Positions 771 to 23,172 of a DNA stretch of 33,013 bases are shown here, one piece after another. The stretch spans positions 1-33,013 of IMG/VR virus record IMGVR_UViG_3300022220_000014. One strand, given 5' to 3'. Numbering within the stretch: position 1 is the first letter of the stretch; each line of letters starts with the position of its first letter. The DNA is from a virus. A program made the translations under genes and the position numbers. The notes beneath the pieces were generated by a model. That model was not told the origin of the DNA, did not search any database, and worked only from the letters and a program-made list of their open reading frames with translations.

Positions 771-1357
771 GCCCGAAACGGGAACTCCCAGGTAAAAAAC
801 AGGCGAAGCCGGCCCCGGCCGGGAAGTCGGGGAAACTCCCAGGTAAAAACTCGAAAAAGGCACTCCCGCCAGGGAAAACGCCAAAGGCGCCGAAAGGCCG
901 GCGCCAATCGACGAAAAAGTCGGATCCGGCGGGGAAACAAGCCCCCCCGGACCCGACCGTCGTCGATCCCCGAATCGTCGCCCTCCGACAAGTCGCCGAC
1001 TGGATCCTCCGCGGCGAAAACGAAATATCGATCGAGGAGGCGATAAAAGCGAAATTTCCCGAATGGCCGGCGATCGAGCTCCTCGTCGCGGCGTTCGAAT
1101 ATATCGGCGAGCTCGCGGGAACGGATCCGGAGCTCCGGAGGACGTGGCATATCGCCGCCCGACGCGAGCTTTATCGGAGGACCGTCGAAATCCACGATTT
1201 CAAAACGGCCCGCGATATACTTCGCGACCTCGGACAATTGGAGGGACTCTATCCGAAAATGGCGCCGACAAAATCGAAATCCAAGACCGACGACCAGGCG
1301 GAGCCCGCCGGCGAGCTCGCCGCCGATCCGATGGAAGATTATCCTGTAATCCAATGA
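767..1357 (+). CDS. Basic-leader protein preceding small terminase (LPGK repeats)
   Basis: A 196-aa protein of unknown function. Residues 1-60 are a Lys/Pro/Gly-rich, strongly basic, probably disordered leader carrying LPGK at 7-10 and 24-27 and a variant LPPGK at 33-37, each encoded by a copy of the dispersed DNA repeat. Residues 68-165 look like a helical globular domain (VADWILRGENEISIEEAIKAKF, then RRTWHIAARRELYRR) of the kind seen in hypothetical phage proteins next to terminase genes; the first part could be a helix-turn-helix. The C terminus is acidic, with DDQAEP. It starts at an ATGA overlap with the PLD-like gene and ends with an ATGA overlap into terS, so coupled translation and a packaging-related role are plausible, but no function is assigned. 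Confidence 0.7.
   Translation: MSPKRELPGKKQAKPAPAGKSGKLPGKNSKKALPPGKTPKAPKGRRQSTKKSDPAGKQAPPDPTVVDPRIVALRQVADWILRGENEISIEEAIKAKFPEWPAIELLVAAFEYIGELAGTDPELRRTWHIAARRELYRRTVEIHDFKTARDILRDLGQLEGLYPKMAPTKSKSKTDDQAEPAGELAADPMEDYPVIQ
783..878 (+). repeat. Dispersed repeat, locus 1 (two exact copies plus one variant)
   Basis: AACTCCCAGGTAAAAA occurs at 783-798 and again at 834-849, 51 nt apart, so both are read in the same frame as LPGK. A variant with GCC inserted and GGT changed to GGG lies at 862-878. Between the first two copies is a short G+C palindrome, CCCGGCCGGG. The sequence lies inside the 5' end of the 767-1357 gene. Confidence 0.85.
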
Positions 1358-1863
1358 AACCAGGCAGGAAACCCAAACCGACGGCCGTAAAGAAACGCCA
1401 AGGGAACCCCGGCCGGCGTCCACTTAACGAGGCCGAACCAATTTTCGAGGGATCGACAACCCCGCCGAAACACCTCGACAGGATCGCGAAAAACGAATGG
1501 CGCCGCCTCGCGAAACGTCTAACGTTCCATTCGATGTTGTCGCCGGCGGACCGGACCGCGTTCGCGGCGTATTGTTCCGCCTATTCGACCCACGTCCGCG
1601 CCGAGCTCGCCCTCCAAAAAAAGCCAAACGCATTCGGATACAAAACCCCCGGAGGCGTCCTCCGACCATGGCCCGAGGCCGCACAATCGCGGGACGCCTT
1701 AAACCAGATGTACAGATTCCAAACCGAATTCGGATTAACGCCCTCGTCGCGGAGCCGACTTAACATACAGACCCCGAAATCCCCCGCCGGGGACGAGGCG
1801 TTTCTATTCGGGGACGACGAGGCGCCGGCCGGCGATGAATGCAAAAACGACGTCGCAAACTAG
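1354..1863 (+). CDS. terS: Terminase small subunit, P27 family
   Basis: A 169-aa protein starting MKPGRKPKPTAVKKRQGNPG, the typical basic N terminus of P27-family small terminases, followed by the family's NEAEPIF, PPKHLDRIAKNEWRRLAKRL (about residues 38-57) and the helical LSPADRTAFAAYCSAY region (63-78). It ends in a conserved RSRLNI segment and an acidic tail. The small subunit recognises the packaging site on phage DNA and assembles as a ring that hands DNA to the large subunit. The start at ATG 1354 overlaps the previous stop (ATGA). An upstream extension of the same frame (to 1063) is rejected because it would overlap the preceding gene almost entirely. The 3' end overlaps terL by 25 nt. 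Confidence 0.92.
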   Translation: MKPGRKPKPTAVKKRQGNPGRRPLNEAEPIFEGSTTPPKHLDRIAKNEWRRLAKRLTFHSMLSPADRTAFAAYCSAYSTHVRAELALQKKPNAFGYKTPGGVLRPWPEAAQSRDALNQMYRFQTEFGLTPSSRSRLNIQTPKSPAGDEAFLFGDDEAPAGDECKNDVAN

Positions 1864-3533
1864 CCCACGATTGGGAACGTCCACCGACCCATCGATCGAT
1901 CGGGAAACTTGAATCCCTCGCCTATAAACGCCACGCCCGCGACCTCCGGACCGGACACAAACGAGGGATTTATTTCGACGACGAGGCCGGCGATCGCGCC
2001 GTCGAATTTATCGAGCGGTTTTGTAAACACTCGAAAGGACGATGGGCGGGCGATCCGTTCCGCCTGGATCGATGGGAGGAATTTGTCGTCCGGAGCCTTT
2101 TCGGATGGAAACGAGCGAAAACCGGCCTCCGACGATTTCTCCTCGCACTAATTCAAGTCGCGAGGAAGAACGGAAAAACGACCCTCGCCTCCGGAATCGC
2201 CCTCCTCCTAACCGTCGCCGATAAGGAAATGGGAGCGGAAGTCTATTCGGCCGCGACGACGAAAGACCAGGCGAAATTATGTTTCGACGAGGCCGCGAGA
2301 ATGGTCCGCAAGTCGGCGCCCCTCCTCCGACATTGCGACGTTATCGGAGGGAAACCACACTCGCGGACGAATAACGTTTCGGTCGAGGCCCTCGGATCGA
2401 AATTCGAACCCCTCTCCTCGGACTCGGAAACCAAGGACGGATTAAATATTCACGGCGGGATCCTGGACGAGCTCCACAAATGGAAGGATCCAGAATTATT
2501 CGAAGTTATCGAAACCGGAACCGGCGCCAGAACCCAACCGTTAATTTTCGCAATCACGACGCCCGGATCCGGCGAGGAGGGGATTTGTTGGGAACAACGA
2601 GCCCACGTCGAAAGGATTTTGGAGGAAGTCGTCGAGGACGACGCATATTTCGGTTTTATATGCGAGCCGGAACGCGAGGCGAAATTCGACGATCCGAAAA
2701 CATGGGAGCAGGGAAACCCCTCGATCGACGTAATCGTCCAACGGGACGACCTCCAACGGAAATCGGATCGAGCGAAAGAGCTCGTCGCCCGCCAAAACGC
2801 ATTCCGGCGCCTCCATTGCGGACAATGGACGGAGCAAGTCGATCGATGGATCGATCTCGACATTTGGAAAGAATGCGGAGGGACTTTCGATCCGGCGATC
2901 CTCGCCGGCCGGCCTTGCTATGGAGGACTCGACCTCGCCTCGACGAAAGACCTTTCCTCGTTCGTCCTCGCGTTTCCGCCGATCGACGAAAGACCTTGGA
3001 CGTATTTCCTCGCGTGGACTTGGTTTCCGTCGATGAGATTCGAGCACTTGAACCGGACCCTAAAACAACCGATCCGAAATTGGATCGATAACGGATGGAT
3101 CGAAACGACCGACGGCGACGCGACGGATTACGAGGTAATCCGAAATCGAATTAAGGAGGCCGGCGACCTTTACGATATCCAGGAAATCGCGTTCGACCCG
3201 TGGAACGCCGCGGACCTCGTAAACCGATTAATCGAAATCGACGGCCTCGAAATGATAAAAAACGGACAGGGGACCGGCGGAATGTCCGCGCCCTCGAAAG
3301 GTTTCGAACGACTCCTCCTCCAACGGAGAATCCGCCACGGGGACAACCCCGTTTTTACTTTCTGCGCGAAAAATGTCGCGATCTGGACCGACGCGAACGA
3401 CAACATTAAACCGAGCCGTCGGAGCTCCGGCGGGAAAATCGACACCGTTATCGCGGCGATTATGGCATCCGGCCGAGCCGACCTCCACGATACCGGCGTT
3501 TCGATTTGGGAAACAGACGAGGCCCTAGCATGA
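1839..3533 (+). CDS. terL: Terminase large subunit (HK97-type packaging ATPase/nuclease)
   Basis: A 564-aa protein, full length for HK97-type TerL. The ATPase half carries the Walker A-like QVARKNGKTTLAS around residues 106-118 and Walker B GGILDE with Asp210-Glu211. A motif-III-like AITTPGSG lies at 239-246. The C-terminal RNase H-like nuclease shows acidic residues in YGGLDLAST (Asp365), AFDPWNAADL (Asp453) and GGKIDTVIA (Asp535). It pumps DNA into the prohead and cuts concatemers, working with TerS and the portal. Start ATG 1839 gives MQKRRRKLAHDWE; it has only a weak ribosome binding site and probably relies on coupling with terS, which it overlaps. Its stop overlaps the next small gene (ATGA). 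Confidence 0.95.
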   Translation: MQKRRRKLAHDWERPPTHRSIGKLESLAYKRHARDLRTGHKRGIYFDDEAGDRAVEFIERFCKHSKGRWAGDPFRLDRWEEFVVRSLFGWKRAKTGLRRFLLALIQVARKNGKTTLASGIALLLTVADKEMGAEVYSAATTKDQAKLCFDEAARMVRKSAPLLRHCDVIGGKPHSRTNNVSVEALGSKFEPLSSDSETKDGLNIHGGILDELHKWKDPELFEVIETGTGARTQPLIFAITTPGSGEEGICWEQRAHVERILEEVVEDDAYFGFICEPEREAKFDDPKTWEQGNPSIDVIVQRDDLQRKSDRAKELVARQNAFRRLHCGQWTEQVDRWIDLDIWKECGGTFDPAILAGRPCYGGLDLASTKDLSSFVLAFPPIDERPWTYFLAWTWFPSMRFEHLNRTLKQPIRNWIDNGWIETTDGDATDYEVIRNRIKEAGDLYDIQEIAFDPWNAADLVNRLIEIDGLEMIKNGQGTGGMSAPSKGFERLLLQRRIRHGDNPVFTFCAKNVAIWTDANDNIKPSRRSSGGKIDTVIAAIMASGRADLHDTGVSIWETDEALA

Positions 3534-3676
3534 CAAAACCGAACATAGACTCCCGCGACCTCCTCGCCCTCCTCGGAGTCGCAATTCTCGCGACGTCCGC
3601 CGGCGTCGTTTTCCTCCCCGCCGGAGGGATCATCGTCGGAGGTTATTTTCTCCTCGTCGCGAGTCGGAAAGGTTAA
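3530..3676 (+). CDS. Small membrane protein between terL and portal
   Basis: A 48-aa protein starting at an ATGA overlap with terL. After a polar start (MTKPNIDSRD) the rest is almost entirely hydrophobic, with two closely spaced segments (about residues 11-29 and 31-44: LLALLGVAILATSAGVVF, then GGIIVGGYFLLVA) ending in Ser-Arg-Lys-Gly, so one or two membrane passes are likely. Tiny hydrophobic proteins at this position are frequent in HK97-like phages and usually uncharacterised. Codon usage matches the neighbours and it fills the gap between terL and the portal almost exactly, which supports it as a real gene. Confidence 0.72.
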   Translation: MTKPNIDSRDLLALLGVAILATSAGVVFLPAGGIIVGGYFLLVASRKG

Positions 3677-3679
3677 ACG

Positions 3680-5032
3680 ATGGGAATTTTCGCCGACGCC
3701 TTATCCTCCGTTTTCGACGACGGCCGGCGAGCGATCCGCGCCGCGAGCCCGGAAAATCCCTCGACGAACCTTTCGAACCCGGCCGATTGGCTCGTCGATT
3801 GGATGACCGGAGGCGCGACGTATTCCGGCCCTCCCGTTAACGAGTTAAACGCAGTCCGAGCGACCGCGGTTTTTCGATGTATCTCGATAATCGCGAACAC
3901 GATCGCGAGCCTCCCGTTTAACGTTTACAAACGAACCGACGACGGCCGCGAGCCGGCGCCCCAACACCCCCTCCAACGGATCCTCCACGACCAACCGAAC
4001 CGGATAACGAGCTCCTACACCTTTCGCCAGATAATCGCCGGCGGACTCCTAACCAACGGGAACGGGACCGCGGTAATCGGCCGGAACAATGCCGGCCGGA
4101 TCCTCGACCTTATCCAACTTCCGCCCCAGGACGTCGAAGTCGAGCGAAAAGGCCGAGGACAGTCCGGGGATTTTCGCCTCGATTATCGCGTTACGATCGA
4201 CGGGAACCGTTTCGACGTTCCCCAGGAATCAATGATCCACGTCCCCGGATTCGGATTCGACGGCGTCCGCGGGATTTCGCCGATCGCGGCCGTCGGAAAA
4301 CAATCGATCGGACTCGGCCTCGCCCTCGAAGAATTCCAAGGAAGGTTTACGCAAGCCTCCGCCCGCGGATCCGGCGTTATCGAAGTCGATAAAGCCCTTT
4401 CGCCCGAGGGACTCTCGAACCTCCGATCCGCGTTCGAGAAACTTTATTCCGGCGTCGAAAAGTCGGGGAAAACCGTTTTCCTAGATAAAGGGATGCAATG
4501 GAAGTCCATGCAAATCGACCCGAACGACGCCCAAACCCTCGAAACCCGGCGGTATCAGGTTTCGGATATCGCGAGGATTTTCGGCGTCCCCCTCCACCTC
4601 CTCGGGGAAACCGACAAGGCGACGAGTTGGGGATCGGGGATCGAGCAACAATCGATCGCGTTCGTCGAATATGTAATCCGGCCGTGGCTGGTTTCGATCG
4701 AACAAGAATTTAACCGGAAACTTTTCCGCGCCCCGTATTATTGCGAATTCGTCCTCGACGGCCTCCTCCGCGGCGATTCCAAGGCCCGATCCGAATACTA
4801 TTCCAAAGGAATCAATAACGCATTTTTGACGCCGAACGAGGCCCGACGCGCCGAAAATAAACCGCCCAAACCAGGAGGGGACCGCCTCCTCGTAAATTCG
4901 GCGTCCCTCCCCCTCGATTCGATCGACGAGCGAAACGAACCACAAAACCGCCGAGCGACCGACCAGGGGAACACGGCAAACCCAACCCCGCCCGACGACC
5001 AGGCGGACGACGGAAAGGACGGCGACGAATGA
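3680..5032 (+). CDS. Portal protein, HK97 family
   Basis: A 450-aa portal. The region NELNAVRATAVFRCISIIANTIASLPF (split over about residues 54-80) is the classic HK97/lambda-type portal N-terminal helix, and HPLQRILHDQPN (95-106) and the RIFGVPLHLLGETDKATSWGSGIEQQ stretch (about 292-317) are diagnostic. The portal forms the dodecameric ring at one capsid vertex through which DNA passes. The last 40 residues are a disordered acidic tail with DDQADDGKDGDE. AAAGG lies a few bases upstream of ATG 3680. The stop overlaps a tiny downstream ORF (ATGA). Confidence 0.94.
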   Translation: MGIFADALSSVFDDGRRAIRAASPENPSTNLSNPADWLVDWMTGGATYSGPPVNELNAVRATAVFRCISIIANTIASLPFNVYKRTDDGREPAPQHPLQRILHDQPNRITSSYTFRQIIAGGLLTNGNGTAVIGRNNAGRILDLIQLPPQDVEVERKGRGQSGDFRLDYRVTIDGNRFDVPQESMIHVPGFGFDGVRGISPIAAVGKQSIGLGLALEEFQGRFTQASARGSGVIEVDKALSPEGLSNLRSAFEKLYSGVEKSGKTVFLDKGMQWKSMQIDPNDAQTLETRRYQVSDIARIFGVPLHLLGETDKATSWGSGIEQQSIAFVEYVIRPWLVSIEQEFNRKLFRAPYYCEFVLDGLLRGDSKARSEYYSKGINNAFLTPNEARRAENKPPKPGGDRLLVNSASLPLDSIDERNEPQNRRATDQGNTANPTPPDDQADDGKDGDE

Positions 5033-5187
5033 ACCCGACGGACAAACTCCCAGGTAAAAATCCAAAACCGGCGATCGATGGACGCCGGGACCGCCGGCGC
5101 CGGATCCGGGACGCGATCGCGCCGGCGAAACTCCCAGGTAAAAACCCGGCAAAACCGAAACCGCCGGCGAAGGCGAAAAAGGAGTAA
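5029..5187 (+). CDS. Tiny very basic LPGK-repeat protein
   Basis: A 52-aa ORF beginning at an ATGA overlap with the portal stop. It contains LPGKN at residues 7-11 and 35-39, separated by an Arg-rich block (GRRDRRRRIRD), and ends in a Lys/Pro/Ala tail. Both LPGKN motifs are encoded by exact copies of the dispersed repeat. The ribosome binding site of the protease gene (AAGGAG) lies in its last codons. It is either a real short basic protein, perhaps nucleic-acid binding, or a translated spacer that keeps ribosomes moving from portal to protease. Nothing comparable among characterised families is recognised. Confidence 0.5.
   Translation: MNPTDKLPGKNPKPAIDGRRDRRRRIRDAIAPAKLPGKNPAKPKPPAKAKKE
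5045..5144 (+). repeat. Dispersed repeat, locus 2 (two exact copies)
   Basis: AACTCCCAGGTAAAAA at 5045-5060 and 5129-5144, 84 nt apart and in the same reading frame. The spacer between them is rich in G+C palindromes (GCCGGCGCCGG, GGATCC). The pair sits between the portal and protease genes. Confidence 0.85.
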
Positions 5188-5190
5188 CAG

Positions 5191-5946
5191 ATGTATCCAC
5201 AATTCCCAAGAATGACCAAACCAGGCGCCGGCGCCCGCCCGTGGTTCGAATTCAAGGCCGCGACGGAGGACTCCCAGGCGGAAATCCGGATTTACGACTC
5301 GATCGGATGGTGGGGCGTAACCGCGAAGGATTTCGCGGCCGAGCTCGACGCCGTAACCGGCGACGAGATAATCCTCCGGATTAACTCCTCGGGAGGGGAT
5401 GTTTTCGACGGATTCGCGATTTACAACCTCCTCCGCGACCATCCCGCAAAAATCCGGACCGTCGTCGATGGATTCGCCGCCTCGATCGCCTCGATTATCG
5501 CCCTCGCCGGCGACGAAATCGAGGTACACGAGGCGTCGGTAATAATGATCCATGACCCCTGGGGAGTCGGAATCGGGAACGCCGCGGAGCTCCGGCAATT
5601 GGCCGACGTCCTCGATAAAACGATCGCGTCCCCGATGGCGAAGATTTACGCCGACAAAATGGACAAACCGATCGACGAAATTCGGGATCTCATGGAGGCC
5701 GAAACGTGGTACACAGGCGAGGAGGCCGTCGAATCCGGTTTCGCCTCGCGACTTATCACCTCGGACCCACCGGACAAAGGCGCGGACGCCGGCGACGACC
5801 GCGACCTTTCCGGATTCCGAAACCCGCCGGCGGAGCTCGCCGGCGACCAGGCCGCGACGCCCGCCGACTCGGAGGAATCCGCCTCCGACGACGACCTCGT
5901 CGGACTTATGAAACGCCGCCTCGCGTTACAGGAGCTCGACGAATAA
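5191..5946 (+). CDS. ClpP-like prohead maturation protease
   Basis: A 251-aa S14/ClpP-type serine protease. INSSGGDVFDGFAIYNLL (residues 64-81) is the usual oxyanion/strand region, GFAASIAS at 94-101 holds the nucleophile Ser98, and MIHDPW at 119-124 supplies His121. The third position falls in AETWYTGEEA (about 170-179), the form common in phage members. Residues 195-251 are an acidic, probably disordered tail ending in a short helix. The enzyme would cleave the scaffold (delta) region of the capsid protein during head maturation; that gene follows immediately. AAGGAG is 7 nt upstream of ATG 5191. Confidence 0.92.
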   Translation: MYPQFPRMTKPGAGARPWFEFKAATEDSQAEIRIYDSIGWWGVTAKDFAAELDAVTGDEIILRINSSGGDVFDGFAIYNLLRDHPAKIRTVVDGFAASIASIIALAGDEIEVHEASVIMIHDPWGVGIGNAAELRQLADVLDKTIASPMAKIYADKMDKPIDEIRDLMEAETWYTGEEAVESGFASRLITSDPPDKGADAGDDRDLSGFRNPPAELAGDQAATPADSEESASDDDLVGLMKRRLALQELDE

Positions 5947-5980
5947 CGCCCCGAACCAGAACCCTAGAAAGGATCGAACA

Positions 5981-7228
5981 ATGAGAGAAAAGGCCCTTGC
6001 ACTCCGCGAAGAACGAGCGAAGGTTATCGCCGAGGCCCATCGAATCCTCGCCGACGAGACAACCTCCGCCGAGGACCGTAACGCCCGATTCGATGAACTC
6101 ATGGCGAAATCCGACGAGCTCAAAGCAGAAATCGACCGGATCGAGCTCCTCCTCCGGACCGAGGACGAGATGGAGGCCCGAGTCGAGCTCGCCGCGGCCG
6201 AAAACAACACCTCGACAGACGAGGCGACCGCGGACGAAATCCAGGAGGACGCCGATTTTAAAGCGTACCTCGTCGGAGGTTATCCAGCACTTTCGAACGA
6301 GGCCCTCGCCCGAAACCAGGCGCGAAACGCCAACCTCCCCCCCGACGTCCGCGCCGCGATGTCGATCGGGACCGACGCCGAAGGCGGATACACCGTCCCC
6401 GAAGGTTTCCAAAATAAACTCGAAATCGCCGCCCTCGCCTATGCCGGCGGGATGATCGACCCCGGCGTCGTTACCGTCCTCCGGACCGCCTCCGGAAACC
6501 CGCTACCGATGCCCACCTCGGACGACACCTCCAACACCGGCGAGCGAATCGCGGAAAATACCCAAGTCGCGGCCCAGGACGTCGCATTCGGCCAGATCAT
6601 GCTAAATGCGTGGTTGTATTCCTCGAAAGTCGTAAAAGTCCCCGTAACGCTGATGCAGGACTCCGCGTTCGATATGAACTCGTTCCTCGCCGGCCGACTC
6701 GGGGAGAGGATCGGCCGCATTTGGAATACCGACTTGACCGTCGGCGCCGGGACCGCCGGGATTCCGAACGGCATCGTTACCGCCTCGACCCTCGGTAAAA
6801 CCCTCGCAGCAGCCGCCGCGATTACCGAACTCGAATTGATCGATTTGGAGCATTCGGTCGATCCGGCGTACCGTATGAACGGACGCTATATGTTTTCCGA
6901 CGCCGTTCTTGCCCTCCTCCGGAAACTCGTCGATGGAGATTCGCGGCCCGTGTTTTCGGCCGGGATGAACGTCGGCGAATACGACCGGATCCACGGATAC
7001 CCGTACACGATTAACCAGTCCGTCCCCGCGCCGACGACCGGACTTAAATCCGTTATTTTCGGCGATCTCAAAAAGTACCAGACCAGAATCGCCCTCGGGA
7101 TGACTCTCCTACGCTTGACCGAACGTTACGCCGATTACCTCCAAATCGGTTTCCTCGCGTTCGCCCGAGCCGACGGCGACCTCCTCGACGCCGGAACCAA
7201 TCCGGTAAAACACGCCATCCAACTCTAA
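5981..7228 (+). CDS. Major capsid protein, HK97 fold
   Basis: A 415-aa HK97 gp5-like capsid protein. Residues 1 to about 105 are a charged helical delta (scaffold) domain. The mature domain begins near AAMSIGTDAEGGYTVPEGF (125-143), the family's N-arm signature. Other typical parts are VKVPVTLMQDSAFDM, the GTAGIPNGI loop and the C-terminal FARADGDLLDAGTNPVKH. Cleavage by the upstream protease is expected around residues 105-125 but the exact site cannot be read off. AGAAAGG precedes ATG 5981. A strong hairpin lies just downstream, suggesting control of transcript level or stability at this highly expressed gene. Confidence 0.95.
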   Translation: MREKALALREERAKVIAEAHRILADETTSAEDRNARFDELMAKSDELKAEIDRIELLLRTEDEMEARVELAAAENNTSTDEATADEIQEDADFKAYLVGGYPALSNEALARNQARNANLPPDVRAAMSIGTDAEGGYTVPEGFQNKLEIAALAYAGGMIDPGVVTVLRTASGNPLPMPTSDDTSNTGERIAENTQVAAQDVAFGQIMLNAWLYSSKVVKVPVTLMQDSAFDMNSFLAGRLGERIGRIWNTDLTVGAGTAGIPNGIVTASTLGKTLAAAAAITELELIDLEHSVDPAYRMNGRYMFSDAVLALLRKLVDGDSRPVFSAGMNVGEYDRIHGYPYTINQSVPAPTTGLKSVIFGDLKKYQTRIALGMTLLRLTERYADYLQIGFLAFARADGDLLDAGTNPVKHAIQL

Positions 7229-7240
7229 ATCCCAACACCA

Positions 7241-7635: not shown

Positions 7636-7653
7636 TCGGGGAGAGGAGGCGCG

Positions 7654-8933: not shown

Positions 8934-9296
8934 ATGGCCCGAACTGCTATAACCTCCGCCTCGATCCGGAACCTTGTCGCCCAACATACGACAGTTATCG
9001 CCGGATCCGCCGACCTCGACGTCGAGGCCGGCGACGATGTAAACGGAAACGAAACCGATTGTGCAGGAGGCGACCTAATCGTCGTCGAAAATACCGACGC
9101 CGGCGCCCAAACCGTGTCATTTACCGCGGCCCCCGACGAAATCGGCCGATCCGGAGCGATTACCGATTACTCCCTCGCCGCCGGCGCCGTCGCGATTTTC
9201 GGACCTTTCCAGTCCGCCGGATGGAGACAAACCGACGGAAAACTCTATATCGACGTTTCCGACGCCCTCGTTTTCGTCGGCGTCCTCCGAACCTAG
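8934..9296 (+). CDS. Beta-rich putative virion decoration-like protein
   Basis: A 120-aa, almost all-beta acidic protein: GDLIVVENTDAGAQTVSFTA, then GRSGAITDYSLAAGAVAIFGPF and GWRQTDGKLYIDVS. Similar short proteins with the same GRxGDIT, GP and GWRQ-DGKLYID pattern are found in head-tail regions of many siphophages and are thought to be virion surface or minor capsid components; that assignment is from memory of the pattern, not a search. Position between tail completion and tail tube genes fits a structural role. A dispersed repeat copy follows its stop. Confidence 0.65.
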   Translation: MARTAITSASIRNLVAQHTTVIAGSADLDVEAGDDVNGNETDCAGGDLIVVENTDAGAQTVSFTAAPDEIGRSGAITDYSLAAGAVAIFGPFQSAGWRQTDGKLYIDVSDALVFVGVLRT

Positions 9297-9307: not shown

Positions 9308-9323
9308 AACTCCCAGGTAAAAA
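9308..9323 (+). repeat. Dispersed repeat, locus 3 (single non-coding copy)
   Basis: One exact AACTCCCAGGTAAAAA in the 65-nt gap between the 8934-9296 gene and the tail tube gene. The LPGK frame is open here but has no start codon after the preceding stop, so this copy appears untranslated. The tail tube ribosome binding site (AAGGAG) lies about 25 nt further on. Confidence 0.85.
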
Positions 9324-10326: not shown

Positions 10327-10707
10327 ATGGACGAAAACAAACCCGCCGAGCTGTTAAACCGCGAGACAATCCTCGCCCACAAATCCCTAAAATCGGAGCT
10401 CGTTTCCGTCCCCGAATGGGGAGGGACCGTCCGCGTTCGCGAGCTCACCGGCGCCGAACGGGACTTATACGAGGCCGCACTCGTTAGGATGCAAAAAGGC
10501 GGAAAACACTCGTTAACGATGGATAACGCCCGAGCTCGCCTCGTTTCGTTATCCGTTATCGACGAAAAGGGATCGAGGATATTCACGGACGCCGACGTCG
10601 TCCGCCTCGGGAACCTTTCCTCGACTGGACTCTCGACCGTTTTCGACGTCGCCGCCCGACTCTCGAAAATTACGGCCGAGGATATGGAAGAACTCGCGGG
10701 AAACTGA
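10327..10707 (+). CDS. Tail assembly chaperone, G-like
   Basis: A 126-aa protein in the position of lambda gpG, directly before the tape measure. It has a small N-terminal beta part (SELVSVPEWGGTVRVRELTG, residues 24-43) and a helical C terminus (LSSTGLSTVFDVAARLSKITAEDMEELAG). It ends AGN-stop exactly at a GGGAAAC slippery heptamer, so most ribosomes make this product while a fraction make the G-T fusion. The chaperones coat the tape measure before tube polymerisation and are absent from the finished virion in lambda. GAAAGGA lies upstream of ATG 10327. Confidence 0.86.
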   Translation: MDENKPAELLNRETILAHKSLKSELVSVPEWGGTVRVRELTGAERDLYEAALVRMQKGGKHSLTMDNARARLVSLSVIDEKGSRIFTDADVVRLGNLSSTGLSTVFDVAARLSKITAEDMEELAGN

Positions 10708-10729
10708 AACGCCGCCCCGAGCGGCGTTT
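10698..10729 (+). promoter_or_regulatory. Programmed -1 ribosomal frameshift signal
   Basis: The heptamer G GGA AAC (10698-10704) sits in frame directly before the TGA (10705-10707) of the G gene, a textbook X XXY YYZ slippery site. A 9-bp hairpin follows: AAACGCCGC (10707-10715), loop CCCGA, GCGGCGTTT (10721-10729). Slipping back one base continues as GGG AAA CTG AAA CGC and joins the downstream T frame without a stop. Gene order matches lambda G/GT. The hairpin also ends in T residues and so looks like an intrinsic terminator, but its placement at the slip site favours a frameshift stimulator. Confidence 0.88.
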
Positions 10730-11123
10730 TTGGTTTCTCCTCGCCCTCGCCCTCGGGATCCCCGTCGGCGAATTACAATCGAGAATGAGCTCCGGCGAAT
10801 TCGCGGAATGGCAAGCGTATTATTCGACGGAGCCTTTCGGCGACCTCCGCGCCGATTATCGGAACGGGATCCTCGCCTCCCTCGTCGCAAATCTGATGAT
10901 CGGGAAGAACCAAAAACCCGCCGAGCCGATCGATTTTGTAATCCACGAGAACGGGAAAAAAGGCGAAACCGTCCTCGACCCGAACCCCGACGACCAGGCG
11001 GACGACCAGGCGGACGACCAGGCGGAGCCCGACGCCGAGCTCCGCCGGCGATCGCAACAAGCACAGATCGACGCGATTAAACGATTCACGGCCGCACGTT
11101 ATCCGAAAGGACCGCCGACATAA
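10704..11123 (+). CDS. Tail assembly chaperone, T part of the G-T frameshift fusion
   Basis: The -1 frame is open from the slippery site to TAA 11121-11123, giving a fusion of about 265 aa (126 from G plus 139). The junction region reads RRFWFLLALALGIPVGELQSRMSSGEFAEWQAYY (split across the first 45 residues), matching the DUF4035-type T domain in which a helix precedes M-S-S-x-E-F-x-E-W. ATG 10785 begins that motif, but independent initiation there would lose the conserved helix and has no clear ribosome binding site, so fusion is preferred. The C terminus carries three DDQA units. The fusion is expected to link the tape measure to tail tube subunits. The stop overlaps the tape measure ATG. 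Confidence 0.85.
   Translation: MKRRPERRFWFLLALALGIPVGELQSRMSSGEFAEWQAYYSTEPFGDLRADYRNGILASLVANLMIGKNQKPAEPIDFVIHENGKKGETVLDPNPDDQADDQADDQAEPDAELRRRSQQAQIDAIKRFTAARYPKGPPT
10989..11024 (+). repeat. Three tandem 12-bp units in the chaperone T part
   Basis: GACGACCAGGCG is repeated three times back to back (10989-11000, 11001-11012, 11013-11024), encoding DDQA three times. The same 12-mer occurs singly at 1289-1300 and 4994-5005, in the C-terminal tails of the 767-1357 protein and the portal. Confidence 0.9.
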
Positions 11124-13363
11124 TGGCAACCCTCGCCCGATTAAACGTAATCCTCGGATTAACGACGTCCAAATTTACAAAGGGACTCGCGTCCGCACAG
11201 TACAAGCTAAAGAAATTCGGCCGCTCCGCGGATCGAGCCGGCCGAACGTTAACGACCTCGTTAACCGTCCCGATGGGACTCGCGGCCGTCGCCTCCGTAA
11301 AAATGTCGTTAACATTCGAAGACACCATGACGCGGATTATTACCCTCGTCGGCGTTTCCGAAAAACAGGTTAAAGAATGGTCCGACGAGCTCCTAAAACT
11401 CGGTCCCGAACTCGGGAAAACCCCCCTCGAACTCGCCCTCGGCCTCGAAAAAATCACCTCCGCGAGTTTCCGAGGCGCCGCCGCGATCGACGTCCTAACT
11501 TATGCCGCCCAAGGATCGAACCTCGGCCTCGGGGAAACCGTCGTCGTCGCCGACGCCGTTACCTCCGCGATTAACTCTTGGGGAAAAGCGAACCTATCAG
11601 CGGCCGACGCGACGGCGATCCTCCGCGCCGCGGTAAAGGAGGGAAAGGCGGAGGCGTCATCGATCGCGCCTGTTATCGGGACCGTCGCGAACGTCGCCGC
11701 GACGATGGGAGTCGAATTTCACGAAGTCGCCGCGGCGATCGCGGTAATGACCAAAACCGGAGCTCCGGCCGAAATCGCAGTAACCCAATTGTCGGCGATC
11801 CTCTCGACGATCCAGAAAGGCGCCCCAAAAACGCGGCAAGCCCTCCTCGGCCTCGGGACGAGCTTAGAGGAGGTACGAGACACCCTCCGCGGGGATGGGC
11901 TTAACGCCCTCCTAACGACCCTCGTCGAGAAATTCGGCGATAACGAGGACGCCGCGGCCCAGGTTTTCGGAAACGTCCGAGCCCTCCGCGGCCTTTTCGG
12001 ACTTGTCGGCGCCGAGGCCGAATCGAACGCCGAAATATTCGCGAACCTCGCGAAAATTACCGGGGAGGACTTGAACGACGGCCTCGCCGTCGTCGCCGAA
12101 AAATCCGGGTTTAAACTCGCCCAAGTTTTCGCCCAACTGTCCGCCTCCGCGATCGTCCTCGGGGACGCGATCCTCCCGTATCTCGTCCCCGCGGCCCAAA
12201 AACTCGGAGAATATATTCGCCTCGCGACGGAGGCGTTTTCCGGCCTCGATCCCCAGGTACAAAAAGTAATCCTCGCGATCGCCGGCCTCGTCGCCGTCGC
12301 CGGCCCCGTTTTAATCGTCGTCGGATTAATCGCGACCGGCCTCGCGGCCGTTTCCCTTTCGATGGTGGGATGGGGCGCCGCGATCGGCGTCGCCGCGATC
12401 CTCCTCGCGAAACATTGGGGGACCGTGAAAAAGGCCCTCGCCGATTTCGTCGCGTTCGCGTCGCCGGCCCTCAACGCCTTAAAGGATTTCGCGATCGAGG
12501 TTTTCGAAAAAATAAAGGCGTTCGCGATCCGCGTTTGGCCGGCGATCCAATCGATCGTCGAGGAAATCGTTACGAATATCTCGGAGATTTGGGAGAAACA
12601 CGGAGCGACCGTCCTCCGCGTTCTCGATCGTGCTTGGAAAGTCGCGAAAACTGTAATCCTCGGAACCCTGGACGCGATCCTCGGAGCCGTCGAAATTCTC
12701 CTCCATGTTATTAACTCCGATTGGCCGGCCGCATGGAACGCCGCGAAGGATACGATTAAAGGCGTTTTCGGAACGATTTACGCGATCGTAAAATCCGCGA
12801 TCCTCCGAATGTCCGCCGGATGGATCGACTTTTCGGCCGCGGCCGATTCCGCGATGGTAAAGGTAATCGGAGGGATCCGACGCCTCGTAACCGCTTGGCT
12901 CGCGATTCCTTTTATCGATCCAGTCCAACGAAAACTCGGGGACGTCGCCCTCGCCGCGATCGATGGCGCGATGGGCGATATTGCGGATCGGATTAACCTC
13001 GCGAAACTCGAATCGCAACTCCTAAACATGGAGGCCGATAAACTCGTCGCCCCACTCGAACGAGCGAAAACCGGCCTCGTCGAGATGCGCGGGGAATGGG
13101 TTACAGTTTCCGGCGCCGCAAAACAAGCCGCGGACGAAACCGTTATTTCGATTACCCGCGCCGGCGAGGAGATAAAAGGAAAGCTAAAAGGAGGATTCGG
13201 GAACGGAGTCGCGGAGGGAGTCGAGGCCGCGAAATCGTCTTATGACGACCTCCAACGATATATTTCGGACCACCCCCTCCGGCCCGAATTCGATATGGAA
13301 TACGTCCAACGGCAATTCGACGCGATAAACGGAGCCCCGAACACCGGCGGAGCCCTCCCGTAA
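11123..13363 (+). CDS. Tail tape measure protein
   Basis: A 746-aa TP901-type tape measure. Residues 1-60 are basic and helical; 60-345 carry the family core (MSLTFEDTMTRIITLVGVS, then LTYAAQGSNLGLGE, SSIAPVIGTVANVAATMGV and AEIAVTQLSAILSTIQKGAP). A strongly hydrophobic block at about 381-430 is the membrane-active segment these proteins use during DNA entry. The rest is long helical coil. No peptidase or lysozyme domain is evident. At the usual ratio of roughly 0.15 nm per residue this predicts a tail near 110 nm, an inference only. AAGGA precedes the ATG, which overlaps the chaperone stop; the stop overlaps the next tiny ORF (TAATG). Confidence 0.92.
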   Translation: MATLARLNVILGLTTSKFTKGLASAQYKLKKFGRSADRAGRTLTTSLTVPMGLAAVASVKMSLTFEDTMTRIITLVGVSEKQVKEWSDELLKLGPELGKTPLELALGLEKITSASFRGAAAIDVLTYAAQGSNLGLGETVVVADAVTSAINSWGKANLSAADATAILRAAVKEGKAEASSIAPVIGTVANVAATMGVEFHEVAAAIAVMTKTGAPAEIAVTQLSAILSTIQKGAPKTRQALLGLGTSLEEVRDTLRGDGLNALLTTLVEKFGDNEDAAAQVFGNVRALRGLFGLVGAEAESNAEIFANLAKITGEDLNDGLAVVAEKSGFKLAQVFAQLSASAIVLGDAILPYLVPAAQKLGEYIRLATEAFSGLDPQVQKVILAIAGLVAVAGPVLIVVGLIATGLAAVSLSMVGWGAAIGVAAILLAKHWGTVKKALADFVAFASPALNALKDFAIEVFEKIKAFAIRVWPAIQSIVEEIVTNISEIWEKHGATVLRVLDRAWKVAKTVILGTLDAILGAVEILLHVINSDWPAAWNAAKDTIKGVFGTIYAIVKSAILRMSAGWIDFSAAADSAMVKVIGGIRRLVTAWLAIPFIDPVQRKLGDVALAAIDGAMGDIADRINLAKLESQLLNMEADKLVAPLERAKTGLVEMRGEWVTVSGAAKQAADETVISITRAGEEIKGKLKGGFGNGVAEGVEAAKSSYDDLQRYISDHPLRPEFDMEYVQRQFDAINGAPNTGGALP

Positions 13364-13455
13364 TGGCGCCGGCAGGACTCCCAGGGAAAAACCAGGGGAT
13401 CCGGCGGGACTCCCAGGGGGAAACCGAAATGGAGGCGAGCTCGTGGCATTCCTGA
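13363..13455 (+). CDS. Tiny LPGK ORF after the tape measure
   Basis: A 30-aa ORF starting at a TAATG overlap with the tape measure stop. LPGKN lies at residues 6-10, encoded by one repeat copy; the second copy, 32 nt later, is out of that phase and is read as DSQGE. It overlaps the start of the 13443 gene by 13 nt and carries that gene's GGAGG within it. It may be only a translated spacer. Kept because it starts the same way as the 5029 ORF: a coupled start followed at once by LPGK. Confidence 0.35.
   Translation: MAPAGLPGKNQGIRRDSQGETEMEASSWHS
13377..13423 (+). repeat. Dispersed repeat, locus 4 (two diverged copies)
   Basis: ACTCCCAGGGAAAAA at 13377-13391 and ACTCCCAGGGGGAAA at 13409-13423, 32 nt apart, each with GGT changed to GGG. 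They lie between the tape measure and the first tail-tip gene. The spacing is not a multiple of three, so the two copies are in different reading phases. Confidence 0.75.
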
Positions 13456-17444: not shown

Positions 17445-19490
17445 ATGGTAACAATTAACCTCGATCCACTCCGAGGAGGCGGGATAATGCCCCGAGCCTC
17501 CGTTAACGGCCTCCACTTTATCGAGGCGGAACCGTTACGAGGCGGAGGCGTCCTCGCCGACGCCCCGATCCGGAGCTCGCGAAACGTCCATAACGTTCTC
17601 GACTGGACGCCGGAGGATGACTCCGAAGGCGCCGAAATCGGGAACCCCGTAACAGTAAATTTCGAGGCCGAAAATACGGAGCTCGCGGAGCTCGATTTTA
17701 CCGATACGGAATCGTTTGACGCCGACGGAACCCATAACGGAACCGTCCAGGCCGTAACCGCGATCGAGCTCGCGACGAGCTCGCCCTCGACGGATTTCGA
17801 AAATTACAACGCCGGATTAATAACGGGAGCAACTCAGCCCGACGAATGGACGAACCTTTCGCCAGTCGATAACAACTCGGCGAACGATTGGCTTTCCGAC
17901 GGGAACACGGAAGTAAAAGCCCTGTATTGGTCCGACGATCTTTTCGTCCAATACGACCCCGCCGGAGTCCTCCGAGCGGGTGTAATGAAAATCCGTTTTC
18001 GATTCGACGGGACAAGCGGACGATTTCGTTTCGCCCATCTCCTAACCGGATCCGGAACCGCCCTCCGCGGACACTATATCCAATTCGAAGTCGGTTCGCA
18101 TTACACCTATTACGGCCGATTCACCCGTTACGATAACCTCCAGGCGATCCGATTTGACACCGGCGGAGCCGGCGTTTTGGCGGAAGATACTTGGTATTGG
18201 GGAAAAATCCGATTCGCCCACGATCCAGGCGTCCGCGTTTACGCTCAATACAAGATATGGGAGGAAGGGGACACCGAGCCCGCCTCCTATAGTTGGGGAG
18301 GCGAGGATACCGCCTATGTAAACGACGGAACCGTCGGCGTCCAAACGTGGCATTCGAGTTATAACCAAGTCTATTATTGGGACGATATTTCCGTCGAGCC
18401 CGAGCCGGCCGTTTACGGCGCCTCCGGAAATTGGGAATCCGATCCCCTCGACGTTTCCCTCGCCGACGTCGCCGCCGGCCATCGAATAAATTTCGACGCG
18501 ACGACTCCGGCGAACACGACCGCGGCCGTTAAATGCCGATGGGGAGTCGGAGATACGTGGTTAACTTGCACCGCCGGCGAGAAACTCCCCGGCCTCCTAT
18601 ACCGCGAAGATATGCGAACCGGATCCGCCAGAGCTTTCCTTTACCTCCGAATCGAGCTCGCGACGACGGACACCTCCGCGACGCCGGAAATCGACAACCT
18701 CGTTATAAATTTCGACCCGTGCTTATTCGAGGATATCGAGTTAACCGTCGATAATCAGCTCGCGACGATCGCGAACGGACACCTCGCGAAATGGGGACGC
18801 GAACAAATTTCCGGAGGCGTTAAAGTCGAGGGATTCGACGACCTTTACGTCCAAGCGCATTCGTTCCAAAATTACCGCCTCCAAGGGGAATCGCTCCTCG
18901 CCGTTTTCGAATACGACGGATTTACGATCGGCGAAATTACGTTCGCGCAACTCCTCCAAGCATGGAAAGCCGGGACCGCCGACGGATATTTCGCGTTTTC
19001 CTCCGGAGCGATCGAGGCCGTCGCCCTCGCCCAATATACGGCGAGGACGACTTGGTCGATCGCCGGCCATAACTATCAATGGACGCTTATCGACAAAACG
19101 CAAGGGATCCACGCCGACGCTTGGTTTTGGGTTGGACACGCACAAACGGACGATTTCCCCGGATCCCTCGTTTCCGGCGAGCTCCAATTATCCGACCACC
19201 TCGGAGCACTCCTCGCGAACGCATATAAACGCGACGATTTCGTCGGGAACAATATTATCCAGGGATACCGATTCGACGACTCGATCGGGAACGTCCTCCC
19301 CGGAGTCGAGGCGATGAACGATTTCCTCGGGACGAACGTCGTCGCGATTCGACACCTTACCGACGTCCCCGGATCCCTCCTCGTTTTCGGAGTGAACAGG
19401 AAAAACGAAATCGAAATCCAGACGATCGACGCCGACACCGTCGCCGAGCTCGTTAAACTCGGATTCGTTTTCCCGGCGGAGGCGCCTTAA
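17445..19490 (+). CDS. Large tail-tip protein with ConA/LamG-like domain (681 aa)
   Basis: A protein of up to 681 aa. About residues 110-320 look like a concanavalin/LamG-type beta sandwich, ending in a characteristic WYWGKIRF, then RVYAQYKIWEEGDTEPASYSW (about 243-284). The C-terminal half (about 440-681) is a different, unrecognised domain. Such lectin-like domains bind glycans, so a host-surface contact is possible. Start is uncertain: ATG 17445 abuts the previous stop without a ribosome binding site, whereas in-frame ATG 17487 has GAGGAGG 7 nt upstream. If 17445 is used, the N terminus carries two similar PLRGGG peptides. The next gene begins right after its stop. Confidence 0.78.
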   Translation: MVTINLDPLRGGGIMPRASVNGLHFIEAEPLRGGGVLADAPIRSSRNVHNVLDWTPEDDSEGAEIGNPVTVNFEAENTELAELDFTDTESFDADGTHNGTVQAVTAIELATSSPSTDFENYNAGLITGATQPDEWTNLSPVDNNSANDWLSDGNTEVKALYWSDDLFVQYDPAGVLRAGVMKIRFRFDGTSGRFRFAHLLTGSGTALRGHYIQFEVGSHYTYYGRFTRYDNLQAIRFDTGGAGVLAEDTWYWGKIRFAHDPGVRVYAQYKIWEEGDTEPASYSWGGEDTAYVNDGTVGVQTWHSSYNQVYYWDDISVEPEPAVYGASGNWESDPLDVSLADVAAGHRINFDATTPANTTAAVKCRWGVGDTWLTCTAGEKLPGLLYREDMRTGSARAFLYLRIELATTDTSATPEIDNLVINFDPCLFEDIELTVDNQLATIANGHLAKWGREQISGGVKVEGFDDLYVQAHSFQNYRLQGESLLAVFEYDGFTIGEITFAQLLQAWKAGTADGYFAFSSGAIEAVALAQYTARTTWSIAGHNYQWTLIDKTQGIHADAWFWVGHAQTDDFPGSLVSGELQLSDHLGALLANAYKRDDFVGNNIIQGYRFDDSIGNVLPGVEAMNDFLGTNVVAIRHLTDVPGSLLVFGVNRKNEIEIQTIDADTVAELVKLGFVFPAEAP

Positions 19491-20288: not shown

Positions 20289-21934
20289 ACCCGACACGAT
20301 GGACCGAGGAAACGATTACCGAGCTCGCCGCCGCGGACGATTACTCCGAGGCCCTCGAAACGTTAACGATTAAAGCCGGATGGCACGACGACCCCGGAAC
20401 CGGAGAATCGTTATTGATCGAGGAGGAAACGATCGGCGTTAACCAATACGGACAACTCGTTCGAAGGGACGTTAAAGAATTTACTTATGACGTCCCCGGA
20501 ACCCCCCCCCTCCTCTATTCCAGGGACACATACGCCCGACCGTACCTCCCAAGCGCCAACGAGGGGAGAGGGACTCTCCTCGTCGAATCCGAGCGAGTCG
20601 AATATCACCCGTGGACACTTTTCCAGCAGGGATCGCCGAACCTTTCCCGAAAACGCCTCCTTTCCGGATACGTGGTTTACGACCTTACGAAACGAGGGAC
20701 CGCGTTAACCCAGGAACAACGCGACGAGCTCGTCGAAAAGGGGATAAACCCCGACGGGAATCCGGAGATTATCGTCGATTCCGCCCGCCTATGGTCCGAG
20801 GCGAACCACCGCGCCGAAACCGTCGAATCGCCCTCCGCGCCTCAATTGGCTAAATGGGTCGATCCCGTCGAATCCGAATTCGAAATCGTTTTCGAAGAAC
20901 CCGATAAATATACGATTTACTCGTATCGGAAAAACCACCTCCGACCGCAGGATATGAGCGTTTCCGGCCCGAGGCACCAGCGAAAGGAATCCTATACCTA
21001 TCGCCTCCCCGTCGCGATCGAGCCCCCGGACATTAAGGCGACGGTCCAGGCGGACGACGGGATCCGCCTCGACGTTACCGGAGGCGGAGCGACCGTCCTC
21101 GACAAACGGATCCAGCCGGAAAAATACCGGATCCTCCGGCGGACCATTTCCTCGCCGGCGCCGGCCGCGGATCCGGATCCGTTCGAGCTTTACGACACCC
21201 CGCCCGCCGCGACCTCTAAATCGACCCTGTGGACGGATACGGCCGTTACCGACCTCGACGGGACGCCGACGAGCCCGTTACCCGCCACGACGCCTTACAC
21301 GGAGCCAGGGGACATTACAGAGCCCGACGGCGACGATTGGAGCGTAATCGGGGAGATCGACAACGAACAACCGGCCGAGCCCGTCGGATTCGGGACGATC
21401 CTCGACGCCGACGTTATCCAAACCGCGGTTTACGAATACGTCGCGACCGCGATAATCGGATCGGATGAGTCGGCCCCGAGCTCGCCTTATCGGATCCAAT
21501 ACGGCGGAGAAACCAGGAAATCGCGGATAACCGCCCACGTAACCCGCGCCGACGATAACGGCCTCGAAATCGACGTCCTCGCCCCGGATCCGGACCTTTA
21601 CGGAGAAACGATCGAATTCGAAATCCCCGTCGAAATTTACGAGGACGAGGCCGAGGAATTCGGGGAGGAAATCGGCCGGCGCCATTTCGCCGACGACCTC
21701 GAATCCGGGTTAAACGTCGATCTCGAATTAAACGTCCCCCTCGCGATCCTCGAACGAGGACAGCGAGTTAAAACGCCGGCGATCGAATGGACGACGACCG
21801 GAAACGGCCTCGTTATCGAATCCGAATCCGACGATCGCGAATGGATCCTCGACGGATTCCGATTAACGGCGACGATGGACAAAACCAAAAAACTCACCGT
21901 CGAGGGGACGACCCTTTATTTAACCGAACGATGA
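20279..21934 (+). CDS. Unrecognised large tail protein (551 aa)
   Basis: A 551-aa protein starting within the last 10 nt of the hub-like gene, with no visible ribosome binding site, so it probably relies on reinitiation. Residues 1-240 have a long beta-rich part with many acidic residues (LTIKAGWHDDPGTGESLLIEEE). Around 375-405 the pattern ADVIQTAVYEYVATAIIGSDESAPSSPYRI (split) looks like a fibronectin type III-type strand pair. The C terminus (EWTTTGNGLVIESES, then GFRLTATMDKTKKLTVEGTTLYL) resembles closing strands of hub or Tal proteins, so this and the previous gene may form one split hub. No family is firmly recognised. Confidence 0.72.
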   Translation: MSLNPTRWTEETITELAAADDYSEALETLTIKAGWHDDPGTGESLLIEEETIGVNQYGQLVRRDVKEFTYDVPGTPPLLYSRDTYARPYLPSANEGRGTLLVESERVEYHPWTLFQQGSPNLSRKRLLSGYVVYDLTKRGTALTQEQRDELVEKGINPDGNPEIIVDSARLWSEANHRAETVESPSAPQLAKWVDPVESEFEIVFEEPDKYTIYSYRKNHLRPQDMSVSGPRHQRKESYTYRLPVAIEPPDIKATVQADDGIRLDVTGGGATVLDKRIQPEKYRILRRTISSPAPAADPDPFELYDTPPAATSKSTLWTDTAVTDLDGTPTSPLPATTPYTEPGDITEPDGDDWSVIGEIDNEQPAEPVGFGTILDADVIQTAVYEYVATAIIGSDESAPSSPYRIQYGGETRKSRITAHVTRADDNGLEIDVLAPDPDLYGETIEFEIPVEIYEDEAEEFGEEIGRRHFADDLESGLNVDLELNVPLAILERGQRVKTPAIEWTTTGNGLVIESESDDREWILDGFRLTATMDKTKKLTVEGTTLYLTER

Positions 21935-23112
21935 TAACCGCCCACCTCCTCGACGTCGGGACGATCCCGCTAATCAACCCCGCATCATGGGATCCAGTCC
22001 CCGGAATGGATCGAGCGTATTACAACGAGGAGGATTTCGAGGAGGACAACACCAACCCGCGGCCGAACGAAATAAACGACCTCATCCTCGGGACCGACGA
22101 GATCGAGCTCCAACCATGGCCGGCGAAATTCTCGAATCGATGTTGGATCGATAACACCTCGCGATATGAAACCGACGGGTTATCCGGCCTCCAATTAAAC
22201 CTCCACCGATTCGACAGACTGACCGAGGAAACGCCGTTCGTCCCCGCCGGCGAATGGGATCTCGACCTCGGGGAACCGCAACAGACCGACCGCGAACTCG
22301 GCCGGATCGTCCGCGAATTGACCTGGACGGAAGTCCAGGAACGCGCCGAAAACCCGGCCGAATGGTTACGCCTCGACCTGATTAATCGAGCGACCGCGGG
22401 GACGGCGTTAAAGGATCCACTATTCGCGAATTGGGAGGGACTCCGCGGGAACGAATTCCGATTGGAGCTCCCCGATAATATACTTTTCGCGCCTTTCGAC
22501 TTGACCGAGGAGGACCGTTATCGCGTCCTCGACGAGAACGGCGATCGAGTCGATCCCGACCTCTCCCCGCACCTTTTGAACCTTTACAACGGAGGAAATT
22601 ATCGGATTTACCTCCGGCCGCGAAAATGGCGTTACGTCGCGACCCTCGTCGCGCATTATTGGTATATTTCCGGATTCGAGTATTTCCGAGCCCAGGAGAT
22701 ATTTACGCGAGCCCATACGCACAGACCCCCGTTTTATCCGATCCGCCATAACCTTATCCAGACGACGAAAACCGCGGACCTCCCCGATTATTTCGGGAAT
22801 AAACACTCATGGGACACCGGGATAAATTGGCAATGGGAACACTCGCGATCGGCCGCGGCCCTCTCCCGCGAGGTTATCGAAGGCCAATACTGGACGAAAC
22901 TCGTCGTCAAAATATTCGGAGGGAATGCCCCCCCCTGGGTTACGATCTCGACCAGGCCCCCCGACCCCGGCGATATAGTCCTCGGGATCGGCCGAATCGA
23001 CTCCTCCGGCCGCGAATCGCGTTATTGGATCCAGCAGACCCAAGACCTTACCTCGTTTTACCCCTGGGAGGTTTTGGGCTCGTATCTCGTCCCGTGGTAT
23101 GTCACCGAATAA
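21931..23112 (+). CDS. Unrecognised tail protein, aromatic-rich (393 aa)
   Basis: A 393-aa protein with start at an ATGA overlap with the preceding gene; an in-frame extension upstream to 21787 is rejected because it would lie inside that gene. It is rich in Trp, Tyr, Asn and acidic residues (WDPVPGMDRAYYNEEDFEED near the start; YRIYLRPRKWRYVATLVAHYW at about 227-247; FPWEV-like strands near the end). No domain is recognised. It closes the tail-tip block, and a repeat-bearing gap follows its stop. A tail-tip or receptor-related structural role is inferred from location. Confidence 0.74.
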   Translation: MITAHLLDVGTIPLINPASWDPVPGMDRAYYNEEDFEEDNTNPRPNEINDLILGTDEIELQPWPAKFSNRCWIDNTSRYETDGLSGLQLNLHRFDRLTEETPFVPAGEWDLDLGEPQQTDRELGRIVRELTWTEVQERAENPAEWLRLDLINRATAGTALKDPLFANWEGLRGNEFRLELPDNILFAPFDLTEEDRYRVLDENGDRVDPDLSPHLLNLYNGGNYRIYLRPRKWRYVATLVAHYWYISGFEYFRAQEIFTRAHTHRPPFYPIRHNLIQTTKTADLPDYFGNKHSWDTGINWQWEHSRSAAALSREVIEGQYWTKLVVKIFGGNAPPWVTISTRPPDPGDIVLGIGRIDSSGRESRYWIQQTQDLTSFYPWEVLGSYLVPWYVTE

Positions 23113-23115
23113 CAG

Positions 23116-23172
23116 AACTCCCAGGTAAAAAAGGAGGGAGAAACCCCGGCCGGGGAAACTCCCAGGGAAAAA
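23116..23172 (+). repeat. Dispersed repeat, locus 5 (two copies flanking a palindrome)
   Basis: AACTCCCAGGTAAAAA at 23116-23131 and AACTCCCAGGGAAAAA at 23157-23172, 41 nt apart, flank the perfect palindrome CCCCGGCCGGGG (23144-23155). The second copy runs straight into the AGGAG of the next gene. This fills the gap between the tail-tip block and the 23183 gene. A frame reading LPGKK is open here from GTG 23094, but the second copy is out of that phase. Confidence 0.85.

Follow-up and report, generated by a model that had tools for sequence, protein, structure and literature searches.

A one-directional repeat at gene boundaries in the structural region of an uncultivated virus is conserved in its core and may mark regulatory sites

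The 33,013-base virus fragment IMGVR_UViG_3300022220_000014 of IMG/VR (an incomplete genome, here referred to as the window) carries a dispersed 16-bp repeat, AACTCCCAGGTAAAAA, at five loci of its structural gene region. The repeat is real: all counted copies share one orientation, and their core is retained in the closest relative found. The copies probably mark sites that are read by a putative regulator. Hereby, we tentatively favour asymmetric sites that act in cis within the late transcription unit and are bound as DNA in the manner of the stoperators of mycobacteriophage L5.

The 16-mer occurs in six exact copies (n = 6) as well as with one mismatch at 23157 and with two mismatches at 13376 (Table 1). 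All eight copies with at most two mismatches lie on the + strand (8 forward, 0 reverse); dinucleotide shuffles of the window contain on average 0.17 matches and never attained eight. The shorter 8-mer CTCCCAGG is present ten times in forward and twice in reverse orientation, and the candidate recognition sites, with the core RAACTCCCAGGTA, comprise about 12–14 nucleotides (nt). A first-pass annotation of this DNA had listed ten copies, all pointing in the direction of transcription. The orientation holds for every counted copy, as do the spacings given for the direct pairs (51, 84, 32 and 41 nt). The list itself holds only in part: the six exact copies and that at 23157 stand, the copy placed at 13377 starts at 13376, and that at 13409 persists merely as ACTCCCAGG. 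The proposed variant at 862 (CTCCCGCCAGGGAAAA, coding for LPPGK) was dropped, as it contains a 3-nt insertion and the peptide ALPxGK is also found in a relative without the element (contig L018, see below). A search for the core with mismatches on both strands returned a single orientation only, and the idea of a directional element thus survived this check.

The closest relative found is the 27-kb contig IMGVR_UViG_3300037246_001125 (locus L017, genome handle G003; hereafter G3), which was read as reverse complement and is 78% identical to the window at the nucleotide level over about 24 kb. G3 contains nine copies of AACTCCCAGG (core ACTCCCAGGTA) at the same five boundaries and in the same orientation. 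In addition, locus 1 of G3 has a further, degenerate copy, and another copy stands alone at 17712; the polarity in G3 is 10 forward to 0 reverse. The pair spacings (window/G3) are 51/51, 84/81, 32/41 and 41/41 nt, and the site before the tail tube (9308) is single in both. Across the nine orthologous sites, 99 of 108 positions of the 12-nt core are identical (92%), compared to 65% at fourfold-degenerate sites in orthologous genes (P ~1e-10). At the untranslated locus at 9308, a 14-nt block is identical to G3 amid diverged flanks. The element has therefore also withstood comparison with a related phage, and the earlier suggestion that DNA or RNA is the level at which selection or spread operates is borne out by a core kept beyond synonymous divergence, also at the untranslated sites 9308 and 23116, and by rare codons where it is translated. 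Beyond this pair, the exact 16-mer is found in six other contigs, once in each, and a paired-motif scan of IMG/VR returned only G3 among real cases.

Outside the core, the flanks of orthologous copies are 48% identical, and those of different copies 49% within the window, 41% within G3 and 42% between the two genomes. Thus, the flanks are not conserved by position, which points to selection on the core. In G3, an identical 57-bp cassette of motif, spacer and motif follows the tape measure as well as the tail-tip gene, at two loci 9.7 kb apart, which demonstrates copying of short cassettes; identities of 25 bp and 24 bp link other loci. In conclusion, cassettes longer than the core have been duplicated inside a genome, and only the core is held by selection.

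The codon usage of the translated copies bears on the level at which this selection acts. Copies 1a, 1b, 2a, 2b and 4a share a frame reading LPGK, spelled CTC-CCA-GGT-AAA, and the 52-residue protein that contains two of them is 63% conserved in G3, as would suit a peptide repeat under protein selection. In this phage, however, GGT accounts for 2.5% of the Gly codons, confirming its noted rarity, and CCA for 12.8% of the Pro codons, so that this spelling has a probability of only about 0.0016 per copy. Moreover, identical DNA is present in the untranslated copies 3 and 5a, and copy 4b lies in another frame. Selection for the peptide is already contradicted for loci 3 and 5 (copy 5a) and is most improbable overall; the rare-codon spelling together with the untranslated and other-frame copies argues for constraint on DNA or RNA rather than on protein.

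The loci are placed non-randomly with respect to genes. Inter-gene gaps account for 3.6% of the region and contain four of the five loci (P ~8e-6). The claim that all copies sit at boundaries of structural gene blocks is correct to this extent, but the first pair lies inside the gene at 767–1357 and four further gaps with a length of 60 nt or more hold no copy. Nor is this gene TerS, before which the pair had been placed: the copies at 783 and 834 are located inside its 5' coding end, and TerS follows it. The copy-bearing tail of the gene product is predicted to be disordered, and the predicted structure of its core is a low-confidence helical bundle. We considered this product as a DNA-binding protein and rejected it, as it gives no sequence match in the PDB and the low-confidence helical model no fold match. 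The supposed contrast with the second operon could not be upheld. The right third of the window, where the main genes are on the + strand too, has no copies, but only about two loci would be expected there at equal density (P(0) ~0.12). A regular spacing of about 4.2 kb between loci breaks down at the last one.

At loci 1 to 5 of the window, the first copy has its CTCCCAGG 14, 14, 13, 14 and 5 nt behind the preceding stop codon, and the corresponding distances in G3 are about 14, 14, 10, 14 and 3 nt. Four of the five window copies fall into one 2-nt bin, for which P is ~3e-4 under random placement in the gaps; as the regularity was noticed post hoc, we regard it as a lead. From CTCCCAGG to the next annotated start, distances vary from 16 to 564 nt, and the repeat is therefore not a start-associated sequence.

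Table 1. Coordinates of repeat copies, associated genes and reading frames in the window, and of the motif of the sister lineage. ORF, open reading frame.
Feature	Position	Strand	Remarks
Copy 1a, exact	783–798	+	codes E-LPGK-K at codon 7 of gene 767–1357; upstream stop TGA (768–770)
Copy 1b, exact	834–849	+	codes K-LPGK-N
Copy 2a, exact	5045–5060	+	codes K-LPGK-N in 52-aa ORF; behind portal stop
Copy 2b, exact	5129–5144	+	
Weak copy ACTCCCAGG	5270–5278	+	within protease gene; absent from first-pass list
Copy 3, exact, single, untranslated	9308–9323	+	behind stop of gene 8934–9296; 38 nt before major tail protein start
Copy 4a (GACTCCCAGGGAAAAA)	13376–13391	+	behind tape-measure stop; codes G-LPGK-N in 30-aa ORF
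Copy 4b, degenerate (ACTCCCAGGGGGAAAC)	13409–13424	+	keeps only ACTCCCAGG
Copy 5a, exact, untranslated	23116–23131	+	behind stop of tail gene
Copy 5b, one mismatch (GGG)	23157–23172	+	adjoins Shine-Dalgarno AAGGAG of gene 23183
Gene carrying copies 1a/1b	767–1357	+	no family match; Lys/Pro-rich tail with the copies; 76%/61% identity in G3/L018
52-aa ORF (MNPTDKLPGKNPKPAIDGRRDRRRRIRDAIAPAKLPGKNPAKPKPPAKAKKE)	5029–5187 (stop codon 5185–5187)	+	start overlaps portal stop (ATGA); absent in L018 and L015
30-aa ORF	13363–13455	+	overlaps tape-measure stop (TAATG); G3 also has a 30-aa ORF
Endonuclease	63–770		PHROG profiles
TerS	about 1357–1863		phrog_83
Major tail protein	starts 9362		PHROG profiles
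Tape measure	11123–13363		PHROG profiles
Endolysin	24158		PHROG profiles
CCACGGGGGGG copies (7–9 G), L139 (= L018)	606, 7214		
CCACGGGGGGG copies (7–9 G), contig of L131 (reverse complement of L138)	2441, 5427, 6646, 10193, 13722, 17121		

Two near relatives bear on how the element arose at the portal–protease junction. In the contigs L018 and L015, whose portal proteins are 80% and 83% identical to that of the window, the protease start follows directly after the portal stop, both share the portal end GAAAAGGAGTA, and the element is absent. The window and G3 contain about 150 nt more at this position, which form the 52-aa ORF (53 aa in G3) with its start overlapping the portal stop. The end of this ORF matches the portal end of L018 and L015, and its Arg-rich centre is flanked by two LPGK copies. 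Because portal and protease overlap in the more distant Agrobacterium phage Rivra, an insertion in the lineage of the window and G3 appears more likely than a deletion. The product of this Arg-rich ORF (AIDGRRDRRRRIRDAI) resembles arginine-rich nucleic-acid-binding peptides; it is conserved in G3 and absent in the near relatives.

A sister lineage carries a different one-way motif. It is represented by L018 (7.4 kb) and L131 (18.9 kb), two contigs of the metagenome that also yielded G3, which possibly belong to one genome; their TerL is 84% and their tape measure 68% identical to those of the window. No ACTCCCAGG is present in either contig. Instead, CCACGGGGGGG occurs eight times in forward and never in reverse orientation in the two together, with an expected count of 0.005 for CACGGGGGGG. 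The copies are found in the tail of the homologue of gene 767–1357, directly behind the tape-measure stop, behind another stop and inside conserved genes; in both stop-adjoining copies, 4 nt separate the stop from CACGG. Within coding sequence the motif often coincides with a conserved Gly-Gly. GGG accounts for 45 of 426 Gly codons in these contigs, and every Gly-Gly after ACG or CAC in the genes counted is spelled GGG-GGG. In a screen for dispersed over-represented 10-mers among 98 retrieved loci with a length of 10 kb or more, the three highest scores belong to the sister lineage (51), G3 (43) and the window (29), followed by a score of 20. A further locus flagged in the first repeat screen, L095, was rejected, as its repeat is a coding one in a tail-fibre-like gene. 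A lineage-specific motif with a minority Gly codon is as expected if site and binder co-evolve, and CCACGGGGGGG and ACTCCCAGGTA may serve the same function. In L131, a gene at 5422–6141 that resembles a DNA methyltransferase (..VVTDPPYG..) is inserted directly behind the tape measure, at the position that a repeat pair and the 30-aa ORF occupy in the window; the poly-G motif lies within the first codons of this gene. The first-pass annotation had noted neither the different motif of the sister lineage nor the closeness of copies to stop codons, and likewise not the lack of the element in near relatives or the small ORFs formed by inserts.

The strict polarity, the conserved core, the spelling with rare codons and the existence of lineage-specific motifs argue for recognition sites. 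According to the mechanism that we tentatively favour, such sites, most of which closely follow stop codons, would be read in the direction in which the late (structural) unit is transcribed. They would be bound by a sequence-specific protein that the phage probably encodes outside the fragment, most often at pairs about 3–8 helical turns apart, and on DNA rather than RNA. The bound protein might then block or modulate late transcription at the ends of gene blocks, by analogy to the L5 repressor at stoperators. The spacings within pairs are weakly phased with the helix (Monte Carlo p 0.067). Several observations weigh against this proposal. In agreement with the earlier remark that no binding protein is visible, PHROGs and Pfam give no candidate binding protein or regulator in the 33 kb. 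Neither an integrase nor a repressor was seen in the fragment, so that a temperate life is at most a possibility. A single strong sigma-70-like promoter was detected in the regions scanned (31268–31297), and it has no copy, while the L5 repressor sites include an early-promoter operator. The near relatives L018 and L015 live without the element, and placement close to stop codons suits a role in RNA or translation at least as well.

It is on account of this placement that action at the RNA level ranks next. Here, the motif would be bound or cut in the mRNA behind stop codons and so serve processing, or the control of translation termination or re-initiation between gene blocks. We consider this rather unlikely, even though the exclusive sense orientation, the stop-codon distances of both genomes, the overlap of a start codon with that stop at three loci and the less than average structure of the single untranslated site in both genomes (z +1.9 and +1.8) would all be in line with it. 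Second copies lie 46–98 nt from the stop, the next start is 500 nt from locus 1, and downstream start distances are not constant. Nor is there a conserved RNA structure: folding is ordinary at all ten loci (z −1.1 to +1.9 relative to genome windows), which also lends no support to a special role of the G+C palindromes described between the pairs, and there is no Rfam match. A more novel reading, less likely still, would make these a new class, the 'stop-associated' phage sites, where each lineage of the present siphophage group has its own transcript-oriented motif (ACTCCCAGGTA in the window and G3, CCACGGGGGGG in L018 and L131), written with minority Gly codons inside genes and placed a few nt behind stops between genes. 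The motif would be the target of a fast-evolving regulator of late genes that acts on messages which are terminating or have just been read.

Equally unlikely is a functionless short cassette, self-copying or merely duplicated, that reaches tolerant places through recombination or template switching. The duplicated 57-bp unit of G3, the 25-bp and 24-bp identities, the absence in L018 and L015 and the location in gaps and disordered tails speak for it, and the small self-spreading element proposed at first is correct insofar as spread does occur. Yet orthologous cores are kept far past neutral divergence while their flanks are not, polarity is strict, and no mobility gene was seen. A role as promoter elements for late sub-operons, recognised by a sigma factor or an activator of the phage, is improbable. 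Copies that are dispersed, oriented and ahead of gene blocks have a precedent in the intergenic repeats of halovirus HF2, which are promoters (PMC8707807), and the motifs of Microbacterium cluster EC precede starts in a phage that has a sigma factor; but no site of the window has a sigma-70 match or a −10-like hexamer at constant distance, copy 5b adjoins the Shine-Dalgarno sequence and leaves no room for a leader, and copies 1a and 1b lie inside a gene.

Further candidates were tried and rejected. Several window copies do resemble intrinsic terminators of the − strand (GC palindrome and T run), but a scan for such antisense terminators gave 38 compared to a shuffle mean of 30.5 (standard deviation 6.0), and the A run is missing in G3; its interruption in G3 likewise removes a −1 frameshift slippery site. 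Downstream Shine-Dalgarno sequences do contain GGAG, but their sequestration by CUCCC has no stable fold in its support and locus 1 has no such sequence nearby. No tRNA was found in the window, and the copies are therefore not tRNA fragments.

Besides the genes in Table 1, PHROG profiles assign TerL, portal, protease, capsid, neck genes and tail chaperones in the window. On the + strand at 10706–10730, a strong intrinsic-terminator-like hairpin (10 pairs, then T-rich) is located between the tail chaperone ORFs 10327–10707 and 10785–11123, where a frameshift product would be expected. At 31254–31330, a near-perfect sigma-70-like promoter (TTGACA and TAAAAT, separated by 18 nt) is the only strong match in the regions scanned and a possible start of a regulated operon. 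Its −10 element is covered by a small dyad, GTCTA...TAGAC, and a Shine-Dalgarno sequence and ATG lie just downstream. Portal and TerL scans of bacterial genomes gave a best match of 42% identity and did not identify a host.

The core AACTCCCAGGTA looks different from the published L5 stoperator consensus. The stoperators of L5 and other cluster A phages are asymmetric sites of 13–14 bp oriented with transcription, 20–30 per genome, whose consensus is lineage-specific and differs among L5-clade phages (PMC6550527, PMC9283540). The repeat studied here is likewise a short, asymmetric site without dyad symmetry in a single orientation relative to transcription (8/0 in the window, 10/0 in G3), with a similar but distinct consensus in relatives. 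In contrast to stoperators, it occupies five loci, forms pairs and lies close to stop codons; within the incomplete fragment, PHROGs and Pfam show no repressor, and the promoter at 31268 has no copy. With the start-associated sequences (SAS/ESAS) found in cluster K and in Microbacterium cluster EF (PMC3203893, PMC7302621), it shares the character of 13-bp one-direction repeats at gene junctions. Cluster K SAS, however, overlap the ribosome-binding site 3–7 nt before starts in the non-structural half (PMC3203893), whereas here all copies are in the structural half, only 5b is near a start, the gap from core to start is 16–564 nt, and ACTCCCAGGTA has no AGGAG for pairing with 16S rRNA. The likeness to stoperators and SAS is thus one of style only, as had been stated from the outset, and membership in either is not supported.

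In Microbacterium cluster EC phages, an asymmetric 18-bp motif of unknown function is present twelve times (PMC7302621). This cluster EC/EI motif, TAGaCTCTaGGTgTaAgC, is similarly one-way and found in short gaps, some of them terminase–portal and pre-protease, with a superficial ACTC/AGGT likeness, but EC copies lie 21–30 nt before start codons and the consensus has no match in the window with up to three mismatches. In Corndog and other phages of cluster O (PMC4351075), 17-bp repeats are also dispersed and partly in genes near 5' ends, with recombination seen between copies, but they are palindromic, number 34 and have no orientation. For a promoter inside the repeat, as in HF2, the scan covered sigma-70-type elements and gave no match at the window sites. 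The repeat works like stoperators, SAS, the EC motif and the cluster O and HF2 repeats, but is not assigned to any of these groups. Short one-way repeats with no assigned function recur across unrelated phage clusters (SAS, EC, EI), and among the asymmetric kinds compared, only stoperators have a worked-out mechanism. The present case offers a comparative set that is usually missing, namely two relatives sharing the boundaries, near relatives without the motif, a sister lineage with a different one and a regular stop-codon distance, and because of this set the regulator, RNA and selfish-copy readings can be separated by experiment. If the motif has indeed been swapped in the sister lineage, the specificity of site and binder would turn over between phages whose TerL proteins are 84–89% identical.

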